In this document: piece by piece, positions 12,170 to 25,666 of the stretch
Position numbering within the stretch: the first letter of the stretch is position 1
Layout: every line of letters begins with the position of its first letter
DNA from: Clostridia bacterium
GTDB taxonomy: Bacteria > Bacillota > Clostridia > Oscillospirales > Acutalibacteraceae
Reading direction: 5' to 3'
Assembly (NCBI GenBank): GCA_017625095.1
Contig: JAGALQ010000006.1
Location: 1-43,793, forward strand
DNA length: 43,793 nucleotides
Position numbers and translations under genes: made by a program
Notes under the pieces: model-generated
What the model was told of the DNA's origin: nothing
Database searches by the model: none
Seen by the model: only the letters and a program-made list of their open reading frames with translations

Positions 12170-12219
12170 TTTGACATAGATTTTCTTGCAGTAAGACGGA
12201 CTGCGTAAGAGGTATGAAA

Positions 12220-14325
12220 ATGAACTCTGAACCAAATGTCAGAAACTCTTTTGTTTGGCAGACGATAAATATTTTGGCGGCGGTGGTTTCACTGTTTGTT
12301 TCCTCTGCTGTATCGTTGGCTATAATCATAAGCGGTGATAATACAGATGTGAGTGTATATGCGGACGTGCTCTTGCCGAATATCCTTGCTGAATGCAGAC
12401 CTGAAAAAGATATTGTTGCCTATGCTGCTTTTGTTGTGCTGTTTCCTGTGCTTTATGCTCTGTTCATCTGCTTAATCCGTAAGATTGCCGATAACGGCAA
12501 TTCTTCGCTGAAGCAGTCGATGAGTTATACGGTTTCTTCGTTGTGGCTTTTCGGTATTTCAGCCGCCTTTGCGACGTTTATATTTTCTCTGTATTTCGGT
12601 TATGATTATGCGGATAAGTATCTTTACGGCAAAGATAAGTTTTGGCTTGTGTTGGTTTGTGCGGTGTTTGTTTGGGTTGTGTGTTATGCACATTGCAAGG
12701 GGAAATACAGTGCAGCGAATGAGATTGCCGCGGTTGCGGTAAATATCAGCTTCCTGCTGTTTGTTCTTTATGCAATAGGTAAGTATAACTATATGTTTTC
12801 CGGTTCTTTTTACAATCTTCATCACTACAGTGCGTGGTGGAATCCGATATACAAAGTCGGTTCGGGGCTGACCCTCGGTGACGGTTTTAATGAGCTCTAC
12901 GGCTTCTACCCCTATCTCGTTGTGCCCGTGCTCAGACTTTTCGGTGGTGTGAATCAGCAATCTGCCTCTCTTTATCTGTCACTTCTTTACGTGATTATGG
13001 CGGCATCTCTTTCACTTTTTTGCAACCGCTTTTTCAAGAACAAGCTTCTGGGTGCATTTTGCGTGTCGGGATTTTTTTCACTCGGTCCGATGGCATTTTT
13101 CTGCAGTACTGAGGTGTACTTTCAGTATTACCCCACACGTGCACTGTTCGTTTTTGTCATCCTCGGCATAATTGCTCTGTACCGCTCGGCGGAAAAATTC
13201 CGTAAACCCATAGCTGCAGGTGCTGCTGTTGCGTGTGCACTTGCGATATTCTGGAATGTCGAATCAGGTATGGTGGTTACTGTAGTGTGGTCGGCATTTC
13301 TGATTTTCGATAAAGCGCTTGATCACCGGCTTAATGATAAGGTGTTGCTGAAACGTATAGGTATGTCGGCTTTGTCTGCTTTTGTTTCAGTTATTCTGTT
13401 TGTTGTTGCTGCCGAAACTGTGACATATATCCGTTCAGGTATTCTGCTCGGCAAAGAGGATATACTTTTTGGTCTTATTACGTTTTCCGGTATTGGATTT
13501 TTTATGCTGCCTCTCAGACCGGGTGTATGGATAGGTGTGTTTTTTGCTTTGGTGTACGGTCTTTTTATTACCGTGCCTCATCTTGCGTTTGTAATGCGAA
13601 AAGGTGAAGCTTTTTGCGGCAACAGGGATAACGTTACGGCACTGTTTATATCTTCTGTGGCAGGTCTCGGAAGTTTTATGTATTTTATGGGCAGAAGTTA
13701 TCATTCAAACTGTATGACTTTTTTGCCGTGGCTTGTTTTGGTTTCTGCGTTACTGCTCGAAGATGATTCTTTTGCTCATTCGTTCGGTAGGGATAAGTTT
13801 TTTCGCTTTTTCGGTAAATTTTCCTTTGCGGCGTATCGTGCAGTCTGCTTTGCATTTGTCAGTTTGTCGGTTGTAACATCGTTTATGCTTGTTGTTAATA
13901 CATTCAACAAAGAAAGCGACATCAACACACTTTTCAGCCGTGAACAGCCGGCGTTTCAACAACTTGCCGACCGTATCGGACGCTGGACCGAAAACGAATG
14001 TGGCGGTGAAACACCGTATGTTTTCAATACCTATGCGGTGTTTGCTCAGGAGCTTGGCGGTATACCTGCCCGTGAAAATGTCTATGAGCAGATCAACTGG
14101 TTCCGTTTCAGCGATGCTCACAGCTACATTGATTTTATAAACGCTCATCCGGATGCTCCGTTTACAATTGATGAATCCGGTCTGTCAACGCTCAAAAATC
14201 ATTTTTTATCCGAGTGGGAAACTTTGGAGAGCAGATATGAGCTTGCTGACGTGTATGAATGGAATATGTATGTCGACGAAAAAACGGTCAATAATGTCTA
14301 TTTGTTCGTGCCTGTCAGCATGTAA
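12220..14325 (+). CDS. Large polytopic membrane protein, probable GT-C-type glycosyltransferase
   Basis: About 701 residues, with roughly a dozen hydrophobic segments (for example near residues 15-37, 64-86, 103-127, 141-157, 168-187) and a soluble C-terminal tail of about 130 residues. After the fifth segment a long loop holds HHYSAWWNP (201-209) and LTLGDGFNELYGFYPY (217-232). A polar loop followed by D/E and a G-x-Y-P-Y helix start is the layout of polyprenyl-phosphate-dependent GT-C enzymes. No close family is recognised, so this is inference. The start is ATG at 12220, 7 bases after AAGAGG; ATG at 12214 is too close. It stands directly upstream of the CDP-dideoxysugar operon and could move that sugar from a lipid carrier onto an outer acceptor. 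Confidence 0.7.
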   Translation: MNSEPNVRNSFVWQTINILAAVVSLFVSSAVSLAIIISGDNTDVSVYADVLLPNILAECRPEKDIVAYAAFVVLFPVLYALFICLIRKIADNGNSSLKQSMSYTVSSLWLFGISAAFATFIFSLYFGYDYADKYLYGKDKFWLVLVCAVFVWVVCYAHCKGKYSAANEIAAVAVNISFLLFVLYAIGKYNYMFSGSFYNLHHYSAWWNPIYKVGSGLTLGDGFNELYGFYPYLVVPVLRLFGGVNQQSASLYLSLLYVIMAASLSLFCNRFFKNKLLGAFCVSGFFSLGPMAFFCSTEVYFQYYPTRALFVFVILGIIALYRSAEKFRKPIAAGAAVACALAIFWNVESGMVVTVVWSAFLIFDKALDHRLNDKVLLKRIGMSALSAFVSVILFVVAAETVTYIRSGILLGKEDILFGLITFSGIGFFMLPLRPGVWIGVFFALVYGLFITVPHLAFVMRKGEAFCGNRDNVTALFISSVAGLGSFMYFMGRSYHSNCMTFLPWLVLVSALLLEDDSFAHSFGRDKFFRFFGKFSFAAYRAVCFAFVSLSVVTSFMLVVNTFNKESDINTLFSREQPAFQQLADRIGRWTENECGGETPYVFNTYAVFAQELGGIPARENVYEQINWFRFSDAHSYIDFINAHPDAPFTIDESGLSTLKNHFLSEWETLESRYELADVYEWNMYVDEKTVNNVYLFVPVSM

Positions 14326-14346
14326 TTATGTAAAAAAATTCTGCAG

Positions 14347-14375
14347 TTGTTTTTATGCTCATATAATGCTATAAT
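14347..14375 (+). promoter_or_regulatory. Promoter of the rfbFGH operon
   Basis: TTGTTT at 14347-14352, 17-base spacer, TATAAT at 14370-14375. No terminator separates it from the membrane protein gene, so rfbF may also receive read-through. Confidence 0.7.
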
Positions 14376-14410
14376 ATAATTATTAAAATAAATTTATTGG
14401 ATGTGTCAGA

Positions 14411-15184
14411 ATGAAAGTTGTTATTCTCGCCGGAGGTTACGGCACAAGAATCAGCGAAGAAAGTCATCTCAGACCAAAGCCTATGATTGAGATCGGCGGC
14501 ATGCCGATTCTCTGGCATATAATGAAGATGTACTCAAGCTACGGATATAACGAGTTTATTATCTGCTGCGGCTATATGCAGCACTCTATCAAAGAGTTTT
14601 TTGCCGATTATTTCCTTCATCGCAGCGATGTTACCTTTGACTTTTCCCAAAACGGCGAGATGACCGTTCACAATAATTTTTCCGAGCCGTGGAAGGTTAC
14701 TCTTGTTGATACAGGCCTTAACACAATGACCGGCGGCAGAGTAAAGCGTGTGCAGAAGTATATCGGTGATGAGCCTTTTATGCTTACCTACGGCGACGGC
14801 GTGTCTGATGTCGATATAGGTAAACTTGTTGAGTTTCATAAACAGCAGGGCAGAATGGCAACTCTTACAGCTATTCTTGTCAGCCAGCGATTCGGTGTGC
14901 TGGATATCGACAGCAATGATGCCGTGCACGAATTCCGCGAAAAGACAGCACAGGATGGCAGCTATATCAACGGCGGCTTTATGGTGCTCGAGCCGGGTAT
15001 ATTTGACCTTATTGAAGGTGATTCCACAGTTTTCGAAAAGTATCCTCTCGAAACAGCTGCAAAGAGCGGTCAGCTCGGTGCATACAAGCACGACGGCTTC
15101 TGGCAGTGTACGGATACTCTGCGTGATAAGCAGCTCCTCGAAAAGCTGTGGGCAGACGGTACCGCACCGTGGAAAAACTGGTAA
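14411..15184 (+). CDS. rfbF: Glucose-1-phosphate cytidylyltransferase RfbF
   Basis: 257 residues, full length. It makes CDP-glucose from CTP and glucose-1-phosphate. The loop LAGGYGTRISEESHLRPKPM (residues 6-25) is specific to cytidylyltransferases of this family; PILWHIMKMYSSYGYNEFIICCGY and LTYGDGVSDVDI (metal-binding Asp) follow, then INGGFMVLEP and DGFWQCTDTLRDK. The ribosome binding site is weak (GGATG). First committed enzyme of CDP-deoxysugar synthesis; followed 27 bases later by rfbG. Confidence 0.95.
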   Translation: MKVVILAGGYGTRISEESHLRPKPMIEIGGMPILWHIMKMYSSYGYNEFIICCGYMQHSIKEFFADYFLHRSDVTFDFSQNGEMTVHNNFSEPWKVTLVDTGLNTMTGGRVKRVQKYIGDEPFMLTYGDGVSDVDIGKLVEFHKQQGRMATLTAILVSQRFGVLDIDSNDAVHEFREKTAQDGSYINGGFMVLEPGIFDLIEGDSTVFEKYPLETAAKSGQLGAYKHDGFWQCTDTLRDKQLLEKLWADGTAPWKNW

Positions 15185-15211
15185 AATTTGATTTTTTCAG
15201 GGAGAACGCTT

Positions 15212-16267
15212 ATGTTGGATTTATCTTTCTATAAGGGCAAGCGTGTGTTCCTTACCGGTCACACAGGCTTCAAGGGTGCCTGGCTCAGCCGTATTCTCGT
15301 CAATGCAGGCGCGGTTATTACGGGTTATTCTCTTGAACCGCCTACTAACCCTAATCTTTTTGAGCTCGCTGACCTTGAGGGTAAGATGACTTCCGTTATC
15401 GGTGACGTGCGTGATTTTTCAAGCCTTAAGGCTGCTTTTGATAACGCTCAGCCCGAAATCGTTTTCCATCTTGCGGCTCAGCCTATCGTTCTCACATCCT
15501 ATGAGCAGCCGCATTTTACTTATGAAACAAATGTAATGGGCACTGTCAATATTCTTGAATGTGTGCGCCTTTGTAACAGCGTTAAGTCTGTGCTCAACGT
15601 CACAACCGATAAGGTGTACGAAAATAATGAGAGCGGCAGACCGATAAAGGAGAATGAACCGCTTGACGGTTACGATCCTTATTCAAATTCTAAATCCTGT
15701 TCAGAGCTTGTAACTCACAGCTATAAACGCTCATTTTTCGATAAAGGCGGCGTTGCCGTTTCAACGGCGAGAGCGGGTAACGTTATCGGCGGCGGCGATT
15801 TTGCGGATAACCGCATTATTCCCGACTGTGTGCGTGCGGCAATCGCTTCAGATGTCATTACCGTGCGCAATCCCAATTCTGTCAGACCTTATCAGCACGT
15901 GCTCGATCCGCTTTATGCATATCTTATGATTGCTGCGGCTCAGTACGAAAACCCTGCACTTGCTGATTACTATAACGTTGGTCCGAACGAGTGTGACTGT
16001 CTTACAACGGGCGAGCTTGCAACACTCTTCTGTAACCACTGGGGCAACGGACAGAGCTTTGAGGTGCTCAGCAAAGACGGACCTCACGAGGCAAACTTCC
16101 TGAAGCTTGACTGCGATAAACTTAAGTCGGTTTTCGGTTGGCAGCCGAGATGGTCTGCTCCCGAGGCTGTCAAAAAGACGGTCGAGTGGACTAAGGTTTA
16201 TGCTTCGGGCGGCGATGTGCCCGCAAAGCTTGACGAACAAATCAACGAATTTTTTTATAAAGGATAA
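15212..16267 (+). CDS. rfbG: CDP-glucose 4,6-dehydratase RfbG
   Basis: 351 residues, an extended SDR. It converts CDP-glucose to CDP-4-keto-6-deoxyglucose with bound NAD. The Rossmann motif TGHTGFKGAWL (about residues 14-24) is the signature of this subfamily. The catalytic Thr/Asp/Lys set lies in VTTDKVYEN and the YxxxK pair in YDPYSNSKSCSE. RPYQHVLDPL and VGPNE are further matches. ATG at 15212 has AGGGAGA about 7 bases upstream; an in-frame TTG at 15188 is not needed. Six bases separate it from rfbH. Confidence 0.95.
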   Translation: MLDLSFYKGKRVFLTGHTGFKGAWLSRILVNAGAVITGYSLEPPTNPNLFELADLEGKMTSVIGDVRDFSSLKAAFDNAQPEIVFHLAAQPIVLTSYEQPHFTYETNVMGTVNILECVRLCNSVKSVLNVTTDKVYENNESGRPIKENEPLDGYDPYSNSKSCSELVTHSYKRSFFDKGGVAVSTARAGNVIGGGDFADNRIIPDCVRAAIASDVITVRNPNSVRPYQHVLDPLYAYLMIAAAQYENPALADYYNVGPNECDCLTTGELATLFCNHWGNGQSFEVLSKDGPHEANFLKLDCDKLKSVFGWQPRWSAPEAVKKTVEWTKVYASGGDVPAKLDEQINEFFYKG

Positions 16268-16273
16268 ACAGCT

Positions 16274-17605
16274 ATGAAAGACGAAAGACAGGCAAGAGAA
16301 GAACTGCTCCGGGCGGTAGCGGAATACTGCGAAACCTACCACAATCAGAAAAAGCCTTTTGAAGAGGGACAAAGGATTCCCTATGCTTCAAGAGTGTACG
16401 ATAAAAACGAGATGGTAAACCTTGTTGATTCCGCACTCGAATTCTGGCTGACTGCAGGCAGATATACCGCACAGTTTGAAAAGCAGCTTGCGTCATATCT
16501 CGGTGTGCGTTTTTGTGCTCTTGTCAACTCTGGCTCGAGCGCAAACCTTCTTGCATTTATGACTCTGACTTCGCCTTTGCTCGGCGAGAGAGCCGTAAGA
16601 AAAGGTGACGAGGTTATCACTGTTGCGGCAGGTTTTCCCACAACGGTAACACCTATGATTCAGTTTGGCGCAGTGCCTGTTTTTGTCGATGTTACTGTTG
16701 ATCAGTACAATATAGATGTAACTCAGCTTGAAAGTGCTCTCAGCCCGAAGACAAAGGCTGTTATGCTCGCTCACACTCTTGGTAATCCGTTCAACATCAA
16801 GGCTGTCAAGGAGTTCTGCGATAAAAACGGACTCTGGCTTGTTGAGGATAACTGTGATGCACTCGGCTCACGCTATACTCTCGACGGTAAAGAGGGCTTC
16901 ACAGGCACATTCGGTGACCTCGGCACATCAAGCTTTTATCCGCCTCACCATATGACAATGGGCGAGGGCGGTGCTGTTTATACAAACAATCCGTTGCTTT
17001 CAAAAATTATGCATTCAATGCGTGACTGGGGTCGTGACTGTGTCTGTGCATCAGGTCAGGATAACCTCTGCGGTCACCGTTTTGACGGTCAGTATGGCGA
17101 GCTTCCGTTCGGCTATGACCATAAATACGTCTATTCTCATTTCGGTTATAACCTTAAGGCGACCGATATGCAGGCAGCAATCGGCTGTGCTCAGCTTGAG
17201 AAATTCCCGACCTTTGTTGAACGCAGAATAGAAAACTTCAACCGTCTGCGTGCAGCGCTTGAGTGTGTTTCAGATAAGCTCATTCTTCCGACTGCCTGCG
17301 AAAATTCCCGTCCGAGCTGGTTCGGTTTCCTGCTTACCTGTAAAGAGGGTGTTGACCGCAAGAAGGTTGTGCCTTATATCGAAAGCAAGGGTGTTCAGAC
17401 ACGTATGCTTTTTGCAGGTAACCTTATCAAGCATCCGTGCTTTGATGAGATGCGTGCAAGCGGTGAAGGCTACCGTGTTGTCGGTGAACTTAAGAACACC
17501 GACAGAATTATGGAGGATACCTTCTGGGTCGGCGTTTATCCGGGTATGACAGATGAAATGATTGACTATATGGCAAAGACCATCATCGAGGCAGTTAATC
17601 TTTAA
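16274..17605 (+). CDS. rfbH: CDP-4-keto-6-deoxyglucose 3-dehydrase RfbH (E1)
   Basis: 443 residues, fold type I aminotransferase family, but specialised for C3 deoxygenation. The Schiff-base lysine is replaced by histidine: YPPHHMTMGEGGA at residues 222-234, H225/H226. An Fe-S site is visible as C256-x-C258-x7-C266 (CVCASGQDNLC) together with C194 in EDNCDALGS; the x1 and x7 spacings equal those of the Yersinia E1 enzyme (from memory), while the long spacer is 61 instead of 57. These features separate it from sugar aminotransferases such as ArnB. E1 needs PMP and an E3-type reductase (RfbI/AscD), not found in the window. Ribosome binding site AAAGGA precedes the ATG. Confidence 0.95.
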   Translation: MKDERQAREELLRAVAEYCETYHNQKKPFEEGQRIPYASRVYDKNEMVNLVDSALEFWLTAGRYTAQFEKQLASYLGVRFCALVNSGSSANLLAFMTLTSPLLGERAVRKGDEVITVAAGFPTTVTPMIQFGAVPVFVDVTVDQYNIDVTQLESALSPKTKAVMLAHTLGNPFNIKAVKEFCDKNGLWLVEDNCDALGSRYTLDGKEGFTGTFGDLGTSSFYPPHHMTMGEGGAVYTNNPLLSKIMHSMRDWGRDCVCASGQDNLCGHRFDGQYGELPFGYDHKYVYSHFGYNLKATDMQAAIGCAQLEKFPTFVERRIENFNRLRAALECVSDKLILPTACENSRPSWFGFLLTCKEGVDRKKVVPYIESKGVQTRMLFAGNLIKHPCFDEMRASGEGYRVVGELKNTDRIMEDTFWVGVYPGMTDEMIDYMAKTIIEAVNL

Positions 17606-17620
17606 GGAGATTTCTTCTAT

Positions 17621-18535
17621 ATGAAAGCTGTTGTAACAGGTGCGAGCAGTATGATTGCTTCTGCACTTATCAGGCTTCTGATTGCCGAGGGGCACGAGGT
17701 TTATGCTCTGTGCCGTCCCGGCTCAAAAAAGCTTGGCAACATCATAAAAAATGAGCGTGTTCATATCGTTCATTCAGATATTTCAGATATCACCGCAGTC
17801 GGTCAGAGTATCGGCTGCGGTTGTGATGCTTTTTTTCACTTTGCGTGGGGTGGCACATCCGGTGCTCAGCGCAACGACAGCCGCATACAGTCGGAGAATA
17901 TCCGCTTCACGCTTGATGCTGTTGAGCTTGCTCACTCTCTCGGGTGTGAAGTGTTTATAGGTGCAGGCTCTCAGGCTGAATACGGCAGGGTTGACGGCAA
18001 AATTGCTCCGCATACTCCCTGCTTCCCCGAAAACGCTTACGGTGCCGCGAAGCTTGCTGCGGGTCACCTTTCGAGAATCGCCTGCGCAAAGCACGGCATA
18101 AGGCACGTGTGGGCGCGAATCCTAAGCGTTTACGGCATAGGTGACAATGATTTTACAATCACTGTTTCGAGTCTTAAAAAGATGCTTTCGGGTCAGGTTG
18201 CACAGTTCACTCCTGCAGAGCAGATGTGGGATTTTCTTTACTGTGACGATGCTGCAAGAGCTTTTCATCTTATGGCTAAATTTGGCAAGGACGGTGCGGT
18301 TTACACACTCGGAAGCGGTCAGGCGAGACCTCTTAAAGATTATATCAAGCTTATGCACGCGGCTTCGGGTGCTGACAGTGAGGTGCAGATAGGTGCCTTG
18401 CCTTATAACGATAAACAGGTTATGTATCTGTGTGCAGATATATCCGCGTTAACTGCTGATACAGGTTTTGTGCCTCAGGTCAGCTACGAAGAAGGTATAA
18501 AAGAAACTGTAAAATGGTTGAAAGGAAGTGAATGA
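17621..18535 (+). CDS. NAD(P)-dependent SDR, probable CDP-paratose/abequose synthase type
   Basis: 304 residues, extended SDR. The nucleotide-binding loop reads VVTGASSMIASALIRLL (residues 4-20), in which the later glycines of the usual TGxxGxxG are Ser and Ala. Active-site residues: Ser in GAGSQAEYG and YxxxK in NAYGAAKLAAG. Placed after rfbH, it should reduce the C4 ketone of the CDP-3,6-dideoxy intermediate; whether the product is paratose (RfbS-like) or abequose (RfbJ-like) cannot be told from sequence alone. No tyvelose epimerase follows. AAGGAG lies upstream; 15-base gap to rfbH; its stop precedes the next ATG by one base. Confidence 0.78.
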   Translation: MKAVVTGASSMIASALIRLLIAEGHEVYALCRPGSKKLGNIIKNERVHIVHSDISDITAVGQSIGCGCDAFFHFAWGGTSGAQRNDSRIQSENIRFTLDAVELAHSLGCEVFIGAGSQAEYGRVDGKIAPHTPCFPENAYGAAKLAAGHLSRIACAKHGIRHVWARILSVYGIGDNDFTITVSSLKKMLSGQVAQFTPAEQMWDFLYCDDAARAFHLMAKFGKDGAVYTLGSGQARPLKDYIKLMHAASGADSEVQIGALPYNDKQVMYLCADISALTADTGFVPQVSYEEGIKETVKWLKGSE

Positions 18536-18536
18536 A

Positions 18537-19490
18537 ATGAGTGAGAAAAAGAAGATTTCCGTAATGATACCGTGCTATAACGAAGAGGAAAACGCACGCC
18601 CGATTTACGAAGCGGTAAAGAATGAGCTTGTTACAAAGCTGCCGCAGTATGATTACGAAATACTTTTTATTGATAACAAGTCAAAGGATAAAACACGCTC
18701 TATCATTCGTGAAATCTGTAAGGAAGATAAGAATGTAAAGGCGATATTCAACTGCCGCAATTTCGGTCAGTTCAATAGCCCTTACTACGGAATAATCAAC
18801 ACAAGCGGTGATTGCTGTATTACAATCTGTGCCGATTTTCAGGATCCCGTTGAGCTTATTTCTGAGTTTGTGCGCGAGTGGGAAAACGGCTACAAGATTG
18901 TTATCGGCATCAAAACAGATTCAAAAGAGAGTAAGATTATGTACGGTCTGCGCACCGTTTACTATAAGCTCATCAAAAATATGAGTGACGTTGAGCAGAT
19001 TGAGCATTTTACAGGCTTCGGTCTTTATGATAAAAGCTTTGTCAAAACGCTCAGTGAGCTGGATGACCCTCAGCCCTTTATCAGAGGCATTGTTGCAGAG
19101 CTCGGTCCTGAGCGTAAGGAGATTGAATACACTCAGCCACAACGAAGAGCAGGCAAGACTCATAACAATTTTTACAGCCTTTACGATGCAGCGATGCTCT
19201 CACTTACATCATATACAAAAATAGGTTTGCGACTTGCGGTTTTTGCAGGCGGAGGATTATCGGTAATCGGCTTCATAATTGCGCTGGTTTACCTTATTCT
19301 CAAGCTTATACATTGGGACGAATTTGCCGCAGGTACAGCTCCGATTCTTATTGGTGTTTTCCTTATGAGCTCAATTCAGCTTTTCTTTATCGGTCTGCTC
19401 GGCGAATATATTATGAATATAAACAGGCGTGTTATGAAGCGACCTCTTGTCGTTGAAGAGGAAAGGCTTAATTTTGAAGAAGATAAATAA
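18537..19490 (+). CDS. GT2 glycosyltransferase, polyprenyl-phosphate type (GtrB/DPM1-like)
   Basis: 317 residues. The GT-A catalytic domain begins with ISVMIPCYNEEENARPIYEA; FIDNKSKDKT and the metal site CADFQDPVEL (DxD-type, first Asp replaced by Ala) follow; then GFGLYDK and the acceptor-loop block. Two membrane segments lie near the C-terminus (about 223-250 and 263-290), ending in GEYIMNINRR, as in GtrB, ArnC and dolichol-phosphate mannose synthase. Expected role: transfer of a sugar from its nucleotide to undecaprenyl phosphate at the inner face of the membrane. ATG at 18537 follows AAGGAAG by 8 bases; GTG at 18528 is inside that site. Context suggests the CDP-dideoxyhexose as donor. Confidence 0.88.
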   Translation: MSEKKKISVMIPCYNEEENARPIYEAVKNELVTKLPQYDYEILFIDNKSKDKTRSIIREICKEDKNVKAIFNCRNFGQFNSPYYGIINTSGDCCITICADFQDPVELISEFVREWENGYKIVIGIKTDSKESKIMYGLRTVYYKLIKNMSDVEQIEHFTGFGLYDKSFVKTLSELDDPQPFIRGIVAELGPERKEIEYTQPQRRAGKTHNNFYSLYDAAMLSLTSYTKIGLRLAVFAGGGLSVIGFIIALVYLILKLIHWDEFAAGTAPILIGVFLMSSIQLFFIGLLGEYIMNINRRVMKRPLVVEEERLNFEEDK

Positions 19491-19505: not shown

Positions 19506-20051
19506 ATGGATACAACAGAAGTAACCGTATTAAAAAACACTATTTATCGCGGCAAGATTCTCAACCTGCGCGTTGATATTGCAGGTCTTCCAAACGGCAC
19601 GGAAGCACCGCGTGAGTTTGTTGAGCACAGCGGCGGTGTTACCGTTGCGGCATTGACAGACGATGCTGAACTTATTTTCGTTAAGCAGTTCCGCTACCCT
19701 TATATGGAGGAAGTGCTTGAGCTGCCCGCAGGCAAACTTGAGAAGGGTGAAAATCCGCTTGCCGCAGGCAAAAGAGAGCTTCGCGAAGAGGGCGGCGTTA
19801 TCGCTTCGCAGTATATCAACCTCGGCGAATTCTATCCCTCGCCCGGATACACAAACGAGGTTATATACCTCTATGGCGCACGTGACCTGACTCAGGTTGA
19901 GCAGGATCTTGATGAGGATGAGTTCCTCAATGTCGAATATATTCCGCTTGACAAGGCTGTTGATATGGTGCTCAATAATGAGATAAAGGACGGCAAAACA
20001 CAGGCGGCAGTGCTCAAATTAGCCGCACTTATTGAACGCAATGCAAAATGA
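19506..20051 (+). CDS. Nudix hydrolase, ADP-ribose pyrophosphatase family
   Basis: 181 residues. A perfect Nudix box runs from G76 to V98: G76-x5-E82-x7-R90-E91-L92-x-E94-E95-x-G97-V98, binding Mg2+ for pyrophosphate hydrolysis. The preceding VKQFRYPYMEEVLELPAG and the later SPGYTNEVIYLY are typical of NudF/YqkG ADP-ribose pyrophosphatases, which clear ADP-ribose and sometimes sugar nucleotides. GGGGAGA lies upstream. It follows the GT2 gene by 15 bases, so it is probably co-transcribed, though functional linkage to the glycan genes is not implied. Its stop overlaps the next gene by 4 bases. Confidence 0.92.
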   Translation: MDTTEVTVLKNTIYRGKILNLRVDIAGLPNGTEAPREFVEHSGGVTVAALTDDAELIFVKQFRYPYMEEVLELPAGKLEKGENPLAAGKRELREEGGVIASQYINLGEFYPSPGYTNEVIYLYGARDLTQVEQDLDEDEFLNVEYIPLDKAVDMVLNNEIKDGKTQAAVLKLAALIERNAK

Positions 20052-20506
20052 TTCTGCACAGAAAGCCTAACCGTTTGAAAAATTACGATTACAGTAGTCA
20101 AGGTGTATATTATATTACGGTTTGTACCCTTGATCGCAAATGTATATTAAGCCAAATTGTAGGGGGCGATGCCCTCATCGCCCCACAAACAAATCTCACT
20201 CACTGCGGAGAGATTGCGAGAAAATATATTGAGTCTATGTCAGGGATATGCAAATATGCGATAATGCCGAATCACATACATTTATTAATTGCAATAGACG
20301 GGCTGATGAAGGCATCGGTCCCTACAAATTCCGTGCCTAACCTTATTCGCTCATTTAAAGTACTGGTTTCAAAAGAAACAGGTCAGAGTATCTGGCAATG
20401 CTCATATTATGACCATATAATCCGTGACGAAGAGGATTATATAAACCATTTGCAATATATAGAGGATAATCCTGCCGGATGGTCGAAAGATAAATATTAT
20501 ATATAA
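20048..20506 (+). CDS. REP-associated tyrosine transposase-like protein (RAYT, Y1 family)
   Basis: 152 residues, complete. The opening RKPNRLKNYDYSSQGVYYIT, the metal-binding HUH motif NHIHLL (H76, H78) and the C-terminal block SYYDHIIRDEEDYINHLQYIEDNPAGW match the TnpA-REP branch of IS200/IS605 transposases, which are domesticated, usually single copy, and act on REP-type hairpins. The catalytic Tyr is probably Y120 or Y121 (inference). The ATG overlaps the Nudix stop (ATGA) without an evident ribosome binding site, so it relies on translational coupling. A GC palindrome is embedded in frame at 20163-20184. No flanking terminal repeats of a complete element are seen. Confidence 0.9.
   Translation: MILHRKPNRLKNYDYSSQGVYYITVCTLDRKCILSQIVGGDALIAPQTNLTHCGEIARKYIESMSGICKYAIMPNHIHLLIAIDGLMKASVPTNSVPNLIRSFKVLVSKETGQSIWQCSYYDHIIRDEEDYINHLQYIEDNPAGWSKDKYYI
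20157..20188. repeat. REP-like palindrome inside the RAYT gene
   Basis: A perfect 9-bp stem, GGGGCGATG (20163-20171) and CATCGCCCC (20176-20184), loop CCCT, with outer TTGT/ACAA arms. It encodes residues about 39-46 (GGDALIAP) in frame. It is far more G+C-rich than the surrounding gene and looks like an inserted or co-opted repeat unit. I saw no second copy in the window. Confidence 0.7.
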
Positions 20507-23085: not shown

Positions 23086-24357
23086 TTAAAGGCTGTCAAG
23101 CATCTGACAGAGTTCAAGATAAAAGCTGTGTGTCTGTTCTTCGTCACCAAACAGGCCGATTGCCGTGCCGTGGTCGCCGCGCTGAACAGGCATAACCTGC
23201 CATACACCCTTTTCAATGTTTCCGCTGTCGAAGTCTTTATGAGGCTCGTCCAGCGGATATTTTGCGCTTTCGGTGTTTACGAGCGCATCATTTGCGAGCC
23301 AGCTGCCGCTGTATTCAACACCCGTGTCGGGGTCTGTGAATTTAAGACATCCCATTGCAAGTGCGGTCAGCATAATGATGGGGTTTGTGTCATAGTTGGG
23401 GTACTGGATTCCGAAAAGCTCAGATTTACTTGTTGTGGAGAATGCATATGAGAAGTAGTATACGTCATCGCTGATGTCGAGCTTGCTGTTGAGCTTCACC
23501 GTGCCTTGGGGTGTCAGGTCATACAGGCACGAATCTTCCTTGTTTTCAAGTGCAAGTGACACGGATTCAAATAAGCCGTCAGCCTTTTCTCCGCCGGGCA
23601 CATCTGTCATACCGAACTGTTCTAAATGAAAGTCGACAAGGCGGCCGTTGGCGTAGCTTCTGCCCATAATTGCAGCGTAAATATAGCTGAGTGTCTGAAC
23701 AATAATATCAAGGCCGAGCGCTTTGAGCGGATAGTAGACGGAAGCGCTGTTGTGCGGTGTGCAGATTGTTGTGGCACTCTTGACCCAATCGCTTTTTCCT
23801 CCGGTGAAAAGACCGGATATATCATCAGCGGATGTTGCAGCTATCTCTTCTGGCGATCCGTTGGTCAGAAGGTGAATGAGCAGTCTTATTGTTGTGCCGC
23901 CGAAGCTGTGACCGATGAGATGGATTTGCTGAATTTTTCCGTTTTCATCAAGCTCGCCCCAGTCGGGAACAAGTGCCTTGTAATATGTTCTGCCGTAACG
24001 GTCGTGGTTGTAGGCCTTTGAGTGTGCAACACCGTAATCGACTGTTGCACCGATAATCTGTGCATAGAGCTCACACGCTCTGTCCCACGCGCTGCTCATC
24101 GGACCTACCGAAGCTGAATAGCACTCGTATCCCTCACCTTGCAGGTAGGTCATAAGGTCACCTGTGGTAGCGCCCCAGTAGGGGATAATGCCGTTGATTC
24201 CTTCGCTTCCGCCCCAGCCGTTAAGACCGTGGACAAAAACAAACGGTTCTTCGTTTTTCGGTTCCCATCTGTCAGATGAAGCAAAGGCTGAAATGCCTAC
24301 CGCTGAAACAAGCAGGCAGATGCTGAGAATAAACGCTGTGACTTTTTTTGCTTTCAT
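23086..24357 (-). CDS. Secreted lipase, staphylococcal-type (alpha/beta hydrolase)
   Basis: 423 residues. A signal peptide occupies about 1-27 (basic start MKAKK, hydrophobic core, AFA cleavage site). The oxyanion strand FVFVHGLNGWGG (39-50) and nucleophile elbow GHSFGG (149-154, Ser151) give the hydrolase core. The stretch DYGVAHSKAYNHDRYGRTY (107-125) closely resembles the block before the catalytic Ser in staphylococcal/Geobacillus family I.5-I.6 lipases. The catalytic Asp is likely in SCLYDLTPQGT and His in QRGDHGTAIG. It should hydrolyse glycerides outside the cell. The start at 24357 has AGGAAGTG; upstream codons to 24405 are not used. It lacks the long propeptide of staphylococcal enzymes. 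Confidence 0.88.
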   Translation of the reverse strand: MKAKKVTAFILSICLLVSAVGISAFASSDRWEPKNEEPFVFVHGLNGWGGSEGINGIIPYWGATTGDLMTYLQGEGYECYSASVGPMSSAWDRACELYAQIIGATVDYGVAHSKAYNHDRYGRTYYKALVPDWGELDENGKIQQIHLIGHSFGGTTIRLLIHLLTNGSPEEIAATSADDISGLFTGGKSDWVKSATTICTPHNSASVYYPLKALGLDIIVQTLSYIYAAIMGRSYANGRLVDFHLEQFGMTDVPGGEKADGLFESVSLALENKEDSCLYDLTPQGTVKLNSKLDISDDVYYFSYAFSTTSKSELFGIQYPNYDTNPIIMLTALAMGCLKFTDPDTGVEYSGSWLANDALVNTESAKYPLDEPHKDFDSGNIEKGVWQVMPVQRGDHGTAIGLFGDEEQTHSFYLELCQMLDSL

Positions 24358-24456
24358 AAAATCACTTCCTGTAGGGTTAACTGCAGGTGAAAACTGCAGT
24401 TTCAAAAAATACTATCTTAAAACTCATAAACAGAGCCCAAAGACCGAATAAAGAGA

Positions 24457-25629
24457 TTATCTGTACGGTGTGCGTACGCTGACCATACGGAAATCAACAG
24501 GTGTGGTGTCGCAGTTGACGCGGTATACGCTGAACACAACACCCATTGCAATGTAGATACAAAGGTTTGACGAGCCGCCTGCACTCATAAACGGAAGCGT
24601 GATACCGATACAGGGCAGAAGCATAAGGCACATTCCCACATTGACGATAACCTGTGAGGCAATCATTGCGGCAACACCTATGCACATCATTTTGCCGGGG
24701 TTGTCGTTTGCCATCTGTGCAACCTTGATTGTTCTGAAAACAATAAGAAGGAAAAGCACGATTACTGCAAGACAGCCGAGAAAACCGAGCTCTTCGCCGA
24801 ATACGCTGAGAATCATATCGTTTTCAGCTTCCGGCACAACACCGTTCTGTGTGTAAGCACCTTTGAAAAGTCCCTGACCTGTAAGACCGCCTGAGCCGAT
24901 TGCATTTTTACCCTGAAGCTGCTGATAAATAATATCCGAATATGATTCGGGGTATATAAGAGCAAGGAATCTGTCACGCTGGATGTTGTTGAAAACCTTG
25001 ACCCAGACAATAGGGAAGGCGGCAACAACGGTAAGCAGGGCGACTGCAAAATATCTGAGCTTGATGCCTGCCATAAACATCATAATTGCAAAAATCATAA
25101 GGAATACGAGTGCTGAACCCATATCACCCGTGATGACAACGAGAAGTGTCGGCACTGCACCGTGAGCACAGAGCAAAAGAATATTAAGTATTTTATCAAG
25201 TCTGTCGCTTGCCAGTTCAATATGCACGGCAAATGTAATGATAAAAGCGATTTTAAGCAGCTCCGATGGCTGGAAGTAAATACTGAAACCGCCGAGCTTG
25301 AAGGGGAGCCACGTGATAACGTCGCTTCTTTCGCTCGGACCTGTGCCCCAGATAAACAGCGACAGCATCAACGCAACGGAAACACCTGCAACAACAGGCC
25401 ACAGCTTAATTATAATTTCGTAATCGATTGCCGAGATAACCATACATATTATCAGACCCAGCACAACTGCGGCAATCATAACGATTGCGTCACGTGATAT
25501 GGAAGCGCCTTCTTCAAGGTTGAAGCGTGTTGCACTGAAAACGGCTATGACTCCCGCAACCGAAGCGATAACACAAAGCGCCAGCATATAAAGATCGGTT
25601 TCTTTTATGAATTTCTGTATGCTTTGCAT
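24457..25629 (-). CDS. RodA/FtsW/SpoVE-family cell-wall polymerase
   Basis: 390 residues with about ten membrane segments. SEDS proteins polymerise lipid II glycan strands during elongation (RodA), division (FtsW) or spore cortex formation (SpoVE). Family blocks: FSATRFN near the N-terminus, FQPSELLKIAFIITFA (residues about 123-138), GDMGSALVFLMIF, and GLTGQGLFKGAYTQNG with PEAENDMILSVFGEELGF, then LPFMSAGGSS. The set favours RodA, but I do not assign the paralogue. The start at 25629 follows GAGGTGA; the extra 12 codons upstream lack support. A promoter lies at 25667-25695. The lipase gene is downstream on the same strand. Confidence 0.92.
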   Translation of the reverse strand: MQSIQKFIKETDLYMLALCVIASVAGVIAVFSATRFNLEEGASISRDAIVMIAAVVLGLIICMVISAIDYEIIIKLWPVVAGVSVALMLSLFIWGTGPSERSDVITWLPFKLGGFSIYFQPSELLKIAFIITFAVHIELASDRLDKILNILLLCAHGAVPTLLVVITGDMGSALVFLMIFAIMMFMAGIKLRYFAVALLTVVAAFPIVWVKVFNNIQRDRFLALIYPESYSDIIYQQLQGKNAIGSGGLTGQGLFKGAYTQNGVVPEAENDMILSVFGEELGFLGCLAVIVLFLLIVFRTIKVAQMANDNPGKMMCIGVAAMIASQVIVNVGMCLMLLPCIGITLPFMSAGGSSNLCIYIAMGVVFSVYRVNCDTTPVDFRMVSVRTPYR

Positions 25630-25666
25630 TCCATCACCTCGCAATTTCATAGAATTATCTGACAAT

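Follow-up and report, generated by a model that had tools for sequence, protein, structure and literature searches.

A six-gene run with the signature of dideoxysugar synthesis

The window analysed here is a stretch of 43,793 nucleotides from the genome of a Clostridia bacterium of the Acutalibacteraceae (assembly GCA_017625095.1; 53 contigs, 87% complete). It contains a run of six open reading frames (ORFs) on the + strand at 12214-19490, which may together make a CDP-activated branched deoxysugar and load it onto a lipid for transfer to the cell surface. The ORF list of the window contains all six, in agreement with the unidirectional run described in the original prediction, which was made from the sequence alone.

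The run opens with the gene for M703 (12214-14325), a polytopic membrane protein and candidate outer-face transferase, recognised by its segment counts and without a family or PDB match. It is followed by ddhA/rfbF for a glucose-1-phosphate cytidylyltransferase (14411-15184), ddhB/rfbG for a CDP-glucose 4,6-dehydratase (15188-16267; a TTG start is listed, with an ATG at 15212) and ddhC/rfbH for a CDP-4-keto-6-deoxyglucose 3-dehydrase (16274-17605). The last two genes encode a short-chain dehydrogenase/reductase (SDR; 17621-18535), the proposed C4-branch reductase, and a GtrB-like family 2 glycosyltransferase (GT2; 18528-19490) with two membrane segments, the proposed polyprenyl-phosphate loading transferase. 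The only long intergenic gap, of 85 bases, separates M703 from ddhA; the next three measure 3, 6 and 15 bases, and the SDR and GT2 genes overlap by 8 bases. A promoter and terminator scan of the window returned consensus matches only and was not used as evidence.

We identified ddhA, ddhB and ddhC with NCBIfam equivalog models, whose curated cut-offs are exceeded in each case: TIGR02623 gave 398.8 bits for ddhA (cut-off 300), TIGR02622 gave 422.1 bits for ddhB (cut-off 278), and the RfbH model NF011936 gave 713.9 bits for ddhC (cut-off 423). DdhC carries the 3-dehydrase signature, in which the pyridoxal phosphate lysine is replaced by His (PPHHMTMGEGG, residues 225-226), and all 78 ddhC cluster members of at least 420 amino acids share the pattern SxYxxHHxTxGEG. 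The best solved relative is the CDP-6-deoxy-4-hexulose 3-dehydrase 3bcx (515.8 bits), in which Cys or His residues align with this His and with Cys 194, 256, 258 and 266. Ahead of its C-x-C-x7-C end, the Cys spacing in DdhC is 61 rather than 57; a pattern built on the spacing of 57 was found in none of the 78 and was discarded. The earlier naming of rfbF, rfbG and a true 3-dehydrase RfbH is thus borne out, and we predict with great confidence that the locus encodes CDP-dideoxysugar synthesis.

A YerE-like gene on another contig

No YerE gene lies between ddhC and the SDR gene in the window, and the related loci L027, L028 and L029 have the same layout. Another contig of the window genome (G000, contig C11, 89990-91804) encodes a 605-amino-acid thiamine diphosphate (ThDP) enzyme, 73% identical to the copy in locus L031; a cation-efflux gene borders it on one side and the SRP54/ffh region on the other. 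Among PDB entries it comes closest to 8rph, with 407 bits compared with 229 for the best acetolactate synthase, and the best acetolactate synthase model gave 337 bits, below its cut-off of 538. The entry 8rph is JanthE, described as a YerE-like enzyme (PMC12188165). YpYerE is reported to transfer a pyruvate-derived unit onto CDP-3,6-dideoxy-4-keto-glucose for yersiniose A, while ErwE favours longer hydroxy-keto acids; the same source names YerE-like enzymes in mycobacteria and, as an assumption, in a spirochaete (PMC12247030). Yersiniose A is described as abequose with a 1-hydroxyethyl branch (PMC8533242).

We compared the distribution of these genes in a draw of 150 genomes of the family, counting ddhC and the YerE-like gene at E <=1e-100 and the SDR at E <=1e-40. 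The ddhC gene occurred in 21 genomes and the YerE-like gene in 18, with both in 17 (Fisher 1e-17, shared ancestry ignored). Only G008 held a YerE-like gene without ddhC, its copy lying 150 bases from a contig end, while ddhC was found without YerE in G029, G082, G095 and G099. The congener G018 had none of ddhC, YerE and SDR at these thresholds.

A neighbourhood survey took in the best 80 of at least 572 candidate ddhC loci, with up to 10 kb on either side, several being cut at contig ends. A ThDP gene of the YerE cluster was local in 34 of the 80 loci. For the other 46 loci, 39 of the genomes carry a YerE-like gene outside the locus (that of L027 and 38 of the remaining 45), giving 73 of 80 overall; a gene elsewhere was counted at 36% identity or more, or when present as several pieces of one gene, and matches of about 31% and 215 bits were excluded. 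The seven loci whose genomes have no such gene are L045, L048, L071, L078, L086, L101 and L102. Treating all ThDP neighbours as one kind was rejected, as the cluster (cluster 4) divides in two: 27 of its 34 members are JanthE-like, including two partial ORFs, and the other 7 share 31-35% identity; the counts of 34 and 73 take in both subclasses. The enzyme of L104, one of these seven, is nearer to 5ahk and to acetolactate synthases, and 5ahk may be the enzyme known as PpYerE. In three relatives of the same genus, the proteins diverge from those of the window genome in step: the unlinked YerE-like enzyme is 94, 90 and 88% identical to that of the window genome; the corresponding values are 95, 91 and 89% for DdhC, 92, 89 and 87% for the GT2, and 86, 71 and 66% for the SDR. 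Taking homology and co-occurrence together, we find it quite probable that the YerE-like enzyme branches the CDP-sugar.

In 12 of the 80 loci (L038, L047, L057, L058, L059, L064, L073, L076, L088, L092, L095 and L105), a gene for an HMGL protein resembling 4-hydroxy-2-oxovalerate aldolase lies near the YerE-like gene, one member having been assigned by Pfam and NCBIfam, and it is often adjoined by a HAD-type gene (cluster c21; one member by Pfam). By analogy with ErwE, the HMGL aldolase could provide longer keto-acid donors and hence larger branches. The relatives' HMGL aldolase was not found in the window genome in a search run without a positive control, and for this reason a pyruvate-derived branch is preferred there. 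YerE-like matches with one in-frame stop each were seen in L119 (G080) and L180 (G734).

The reductase type and the identity of the sugar

The SDR matches general SDR models in Pfam, and none of its NCBIfam matches exceeds an equivalog cut-off. Attempts to name it by curated family or PDB entry were abandoned, the matches being too weak to name a reaction. Of the earlier description as a C4-reductase-type SDR, the SDR assignment stands, while no curated model specifies the reaction.

Its distribution is more informative. In the draw of 150 genomes, the SDR was found in 22, of which 18 also hold ddhC; it occurs without ddhC in G064, G074, G113 and G119, and ddhC occurs without it in G099, G120 and G144. 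Matches of at least 240 bits are confined to 13 genomes, all 13 with both ddhC and YerE (Fisher 5e-15 with YerE, shared ancestry ignored). Among the 80 ddhC loci, 28 carry an SDR of the window type (at least 280 bits), and all 28 of their genomes have a YerE-like gene, local in 24 and elsewhere for L027, L028, L029 and L066. The local genes all belong to the JanthE-like subclass. The window-type SDR is found neither in the seven loci with the other ThDP subclass nor in the seven whose genomes lack YerE. In a tree of 38 SDRs, that of the window clusters with those of L027, L028 and L029 (100/100), and this group falls inside a set of 27, all YerE-associated, whose branch has support of 91/90. 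Several outer rows of the tree are long, and the window is labelled there with the local-JanthE group although its YerE-like gene is unlinked. The SDR of L055 lies outside the set of 27, and its genome has a YerE-like match of 39%.

One alternative is that the SDR converts CDP-4-keto-3,6-dideoxyglucose into CDP-paratose or CDP-abequose by direct reduction, the products named in the original prediction, and that the unlinked YerE-like gene serves another purpose. The absence of a YerE gene between ddhC and the SDR gene in the window and in L027, L028 and L029 fits such a route, as do the general compatibility of the SDR with C4 reduction and the CDP-paratose genes predicted in Clostridium butyricum (PMC13317340). 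Against it, YerE closely tracks ddhC as well as SDRs of this type, and does so even in the three relatives of the genus whose YerE is unlinked, and of the seven ddhC loci without YerE four have another SDR type (64-190 bits) and three have no SDR. We regard direct reduction as unlikely. Because YerE tracks ddhC and the window SDR type, the product is more likely to be a C4-branched sugar than either paratose or abequose, and the SDR probably acts on the branched sugar.

Loading of the lipid carrier

The GT2 has as its best solved relative the GtrB protein sll0501 (5eke, 142.6 bits), followed by ArnC. It matches PF00535, and its best PHROG is the GtrB-like phrog_841 (205.7 bits); the best NCBIfam model, PgfS, gave 173.5 bits with a cut-off of 500, so that the protein is not filed there. 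By a simple hydropathy count, the GT2 cluster has a median of two membrane segments, which on inspection of the window sequence lie at the C-terminal end. These matches agree with the predicted GtrB-like GT2 with two C-terminal membrane segments, and the enzyme very likely loads a carrier lipid.

As had been noted before, the locus shows no GtrA gene; three GtrA matches lie elsewhere in the window genome (59.8, 36.2 and 20.6 bits). On contig C13, a purF-like gene separates GtrA from a homologue of the Wzx-like cluster c19. Among the 80 ddhC loci, GtrA (cluster c10) is present in 13, each confirmed by Pfam, and c19 in seven, with PF01943 matched by two of eight c19 members (best 1.5e-6) and not by the copy of the window genome. 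The two never share a locus, a mutual exclusion that is only suggestive at these numbers. In Lactococcus lactis, one GtrA-type protein is reported to serve three transferase pairs (PMC8035078), and the absence of a flippase from the locus is therefore no obstacle. Wzx-type flippases have been suggested for some three-component systems (PMC8035078), and a MATE-type flippase has been described (PMC11127046).

Alternatively, the GT2 might work as a conventional cytoplasmic transferase, with a protein or a repeat unit of the Wzx/Wzy type as acceptor, in which case a polyprenyl-phosphate sugar would never form. The presence of Wzx-like c19 in seven of the 80 loci, the rml genes and two Glycos_transf_1 genes upstream of the run, and the prediction that Clostridium dideoxyhexose genes serve flagellin (PMC13317340) are in keeping with that role. 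Against it stand the matches of the GT2 to the polyprenyl-phosphate transferases GtrB and ArnC and the presence of GtrA in 13 of the loci, and flippases of the MATE and Wzx types have been proposed for carrier-linked single sugars too (PMC11127046, PMC8035078). We consider a purely cytoplasmic role very improbable and retain carrier loading as the predicted function of the GT2.

Outer-face transferases and the membrane protein M703

In 25 of the 28 loci with a window-type SDR, a polytopic protein is encoded no more than 3 kb away on the same strand, the exceptions being L029, L041 and L095; such a neighbour was defined by at least 380 amino acids and 7 segments, c19 being left out. The Pfam assignments that follow come from one or two members of each polytopic cluster. 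YfhO (cluster c17) occupies eight loci, with 348 bits in L031 and 333 in L036. GT87 was recognised in cluster c16 (69.6 bits in L057) and in c18 (31.8 bits in L033 and 26.8 in L090, cut-off 25), and GtrII in L028 (72.5 bits). Relatives of M703 fill this position in L027, L038 and L105, and six other polytopic neighbours gave no match in the Pfam scan. Two genus relatives have extra genes between ddhB and ddhC (L028:5996-9986 and L029:7741-9992), namely c19, a polysaccharide pyruvyl transferase-like gene and, in L028 only, GtrII. The three-component arrangement suggested before therefore finds support in the YfhO, GtrII, GT87 and GtrA genes that accompany the core in relatives, but the GT-C nature of M703 itself is weakly founded.

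M703 has 703 amino acids, with 15 membrane segments by simple count and about 13 distinct ones in a family-averaged profile, and a C-terminal tail of about 140 residues. The polytopic 701-residue protein reported earlier is the same ORF read from its second Met. In an alignment (A4) of 13 relatives, the window protein included, a long loop that follows roughly five distinct segments holds the most strongly conserved residues (His204, Tyr229 and Gly230). Weak Pfam matches of single family members (best 0.0014) were taken as chance.

Several results count against a transferase role. M703 has no match in Pfam, NCBIfam, PHROG or PDB, and profile comparison found no link to the YfhO, GT87 or Wzx-like clusters. 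The column three before the invariant His204 holds N in 7, D in 4 and E in 2 of the 13 members, with Asn in the window; if this conserved loop is the active one, the window protein does not have the Asp or Glu expected in the first outer loop. The family is present in only three of 300 family genomes, the window's included, and its relatives are mostly found away from ddh loci (L109, L160-L163, L166, L168, L169). It was found in four of 391 genomes of the class, again including the window's, and in five of 50 genomes of ddhC loci, three of which had supplied query rows. Some relatives occur as neighbouring pairs (L161 and L163 in G536; L166 and L169 in G707).

These same features (the missing family, PDB and profile links, the rarity and dispersal of the family, and a conserved loop without an invariant acid) would suit a polymerase, ligase or transporter that chances to sit upstream, with a transferase encoded elsewhere using the lipid-linked sugar. 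Position speaks for the transferase. Relatives of M703 adjoin ddhA, ddhC or the GT2 gene in L027, L038, L060 and L105, directly following the GT2 gene in L038 and L105 and ddhC in L060, and YfhO holds the same slot upstream of ddhA in six relatives. The proposed linkage of the core to an outer-face transferase is seen in relatives through known transferase families. We regard a chance neighbour as a serious, though less than even, possibility and place the prediction that M703 is the outer-face transferase at an even balance.

A proposed pathway and its relation to known systems

In the scheme that we propose, DdhA, DdhB and DdhC would convert glucose-1-phosphate to the precursor CDP-4-keto-3,6-dideoxyglucose, a step backed by strong homology. 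The YerE-like ThDP enzyme from the other contig would add a two-carbon or similar branch onto C4, as suggested by homology, co-occurrence and linkage in relatives, and the SDR would reduce this branch to give a CDP-activated branched 3,6-dideoxyhexose of the yersiniose class. On the inner face of the membrane, the GtrB-like GT2 is predicted by homology to move the sugar onto undecaprenyl phosphate. The lipid-linked sugar would then be turned over by a flippase of the GtrA or Wzx type whose gene lies elsewhere in the genome, and passed to an outer surface glycan by a polytopic enzyme, for which the neighbouring M703 is the likeliest candidate in view of the slot it fills. On sequence evidence, we lean towards this scheme as a whole, in which the locus makes a CDP-derived branched deoxysugar and loads it on a lipid for a surface glycan, by a modest margin of belief.

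Beyond the observations on M703, a number of points weigh against it. The YerE-like gene is unlinked in this genus and its partnership with the SDR is statistical; the nearest solved relatives of the SDR reach at most 64 bits, and the SDRs of L041 and L090, both JanthE-like loci, fall outside the main set of 27 in the tree. The 87% complete genome encodes four Fer2-domain proteins, none with a DdhD/E3 layout: a FAD-NAD-Fer2 protein of reversed order, a Fer2-pyridine nucleotide reductase, RACo and an Fe hydrogenase. Finally, in 44 of the 80 ddhC loci no GT2 of at least 400 bits lies within the retrieved flanks, some of them cut short by the end of a contig, so that ddhABC serves other pathways too. 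In 22 of the 80 loci (cluster 5: L033, L034 and 20 more; one member assigned by Pfam), the ddh genes have a LicD-type gene in their vicinity, often without a GT2, as in the Lacrimispora loci, and there the dideoxysugar may enter a phosphodiester-linked polymer.

The arrangement resembles the three-component Gtr and CsbB-GtcA-YfhO systems in placing a GtrB-like GT2 beside a large polytopic protein, in the use of YfhO, GtrII, GT87 and GtrA by relatives of the window locus, and in a flippase that may be encoded elsewhere (PMC8035078). The sugars described for those systems are Glc, Gal, GlcNAc or unknown, whereas here the donor is a CDP-dideoxysugar, probably branched, its synthesis genes stand in the same run, and M703 matches no known family. 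With the yersiniose A pathway of Yersinia pseudotuberculosis, the system shares a DdhC relative, a YerE-like ThDP enzyme and an SDR; that pathway feeds O antigen, while here a GtrB-like enzyme is linked and the YerE-like gene is unlinked, its product being nearest to JanthE among solved structures. In the pentofuranose system of Citrobacter youngae (GT136), a carrier-linked single sugar, a MATE-type flippase and a GT-C enzyme are likewise described, the flippase paralleling the Wzx-like c19 of seven relatives, but the sugar is a ribofuranose made from phosphoribosyl pyrophosphate without a nucleotide sugar (PMC11127046).

RfbF, RfbG and RfbH are also predicted in Clostridia in flagellar glycosylation islands, where genes for CDP-paratose or 3,6-dideoxyhexoses were predicted in C. 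butyricum, C. sporogenes and C. thermosuccinogenes (PMC13317340). Dideoxyhexose genes in Clostridia are therefore not new as such, and to confine these sugars to Gram-negative bacteria would be too strong. Those islands are predicted to act on flagellin and include RfbS, with YerE not mentioned in the portion of the paper considered; the window instead combines a GtrB-like enzyme with a YerE-associated SDR, and no flagellar gene was found among its scanned ORFs. Tyvelose, paratose and abequose have been described as occurring primarily in Salmonella and Yersinia (PMC7725333) and have been placed in Gram-negative lipopolysaccharide (PMC8987622), and C4-hydroxyethyl octoses are reported both for the polysaccharides of several genera of Gram-negative bacteria and for Gram-positive antibiotics (PMC4753412). 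Among the titles and abstract openings returned by our literature search, nothing concerned YerE or yersiniose-type sugars in Clostridia.

Systems of this kind are known already; the one proposed here would differ in its donor sugar, its host group and its exchangeable parts. The pairing of CDP-dideoxysugar synthesis with a GtrB-type lipid-carrier transferase in Clostridia, central to the original prediction, is supported by matches to curated models and PDB entries. If the scheme is correct, common gut Clostridia would carry on their surface a sugar class that has been reported from O antigens of Gram-negative bacteria, from glycolipids of mycobacteria and from antibiotics, and three-component glycosylation would gain a new donor class. 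Concrete predictions follow for the sugar, the lipid donor and the exchangeable outer transferase. In gut bacteria, surface sugars are important for phage attachment and for immune recognition. More tentatively, and with less confidence than in the scheme itself, gut Clostridia may share a conserved DdhC-YerE-SDR-GtrB block combined with interchangeable outer transferases (YfhO, GtrII, GT87 or M703) and flippases (GtrA or Wzx-type), in which the branches would be of the yersiniose class, larger where HMGL accompanies YerE, and M703 would represent a new GT-C family.

Neighbouring genes

A NUDIX hydrolase gene (19506-20051, + strand; PF00293) starts 15 bases downstream of the GT2 gene and is kept in L027-L029; it probably stands outside the glycosylation system. 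It is followed by an IS200-like (Y1) transposase ORF at 20048-20506, with 23.3 bits at a cut-off of 23. Upstream of the run lie divergent rmlA, rmlC and rmlD genes and the two Glycos_transf_1 genes mentioned above, and a single tRNA-Lys gene is found at 282-357. Further downstream, the - strand encodes a Lip_C lipase-like protein (23086-24405) and an FtsW/RodA-family protein (24457-25665).

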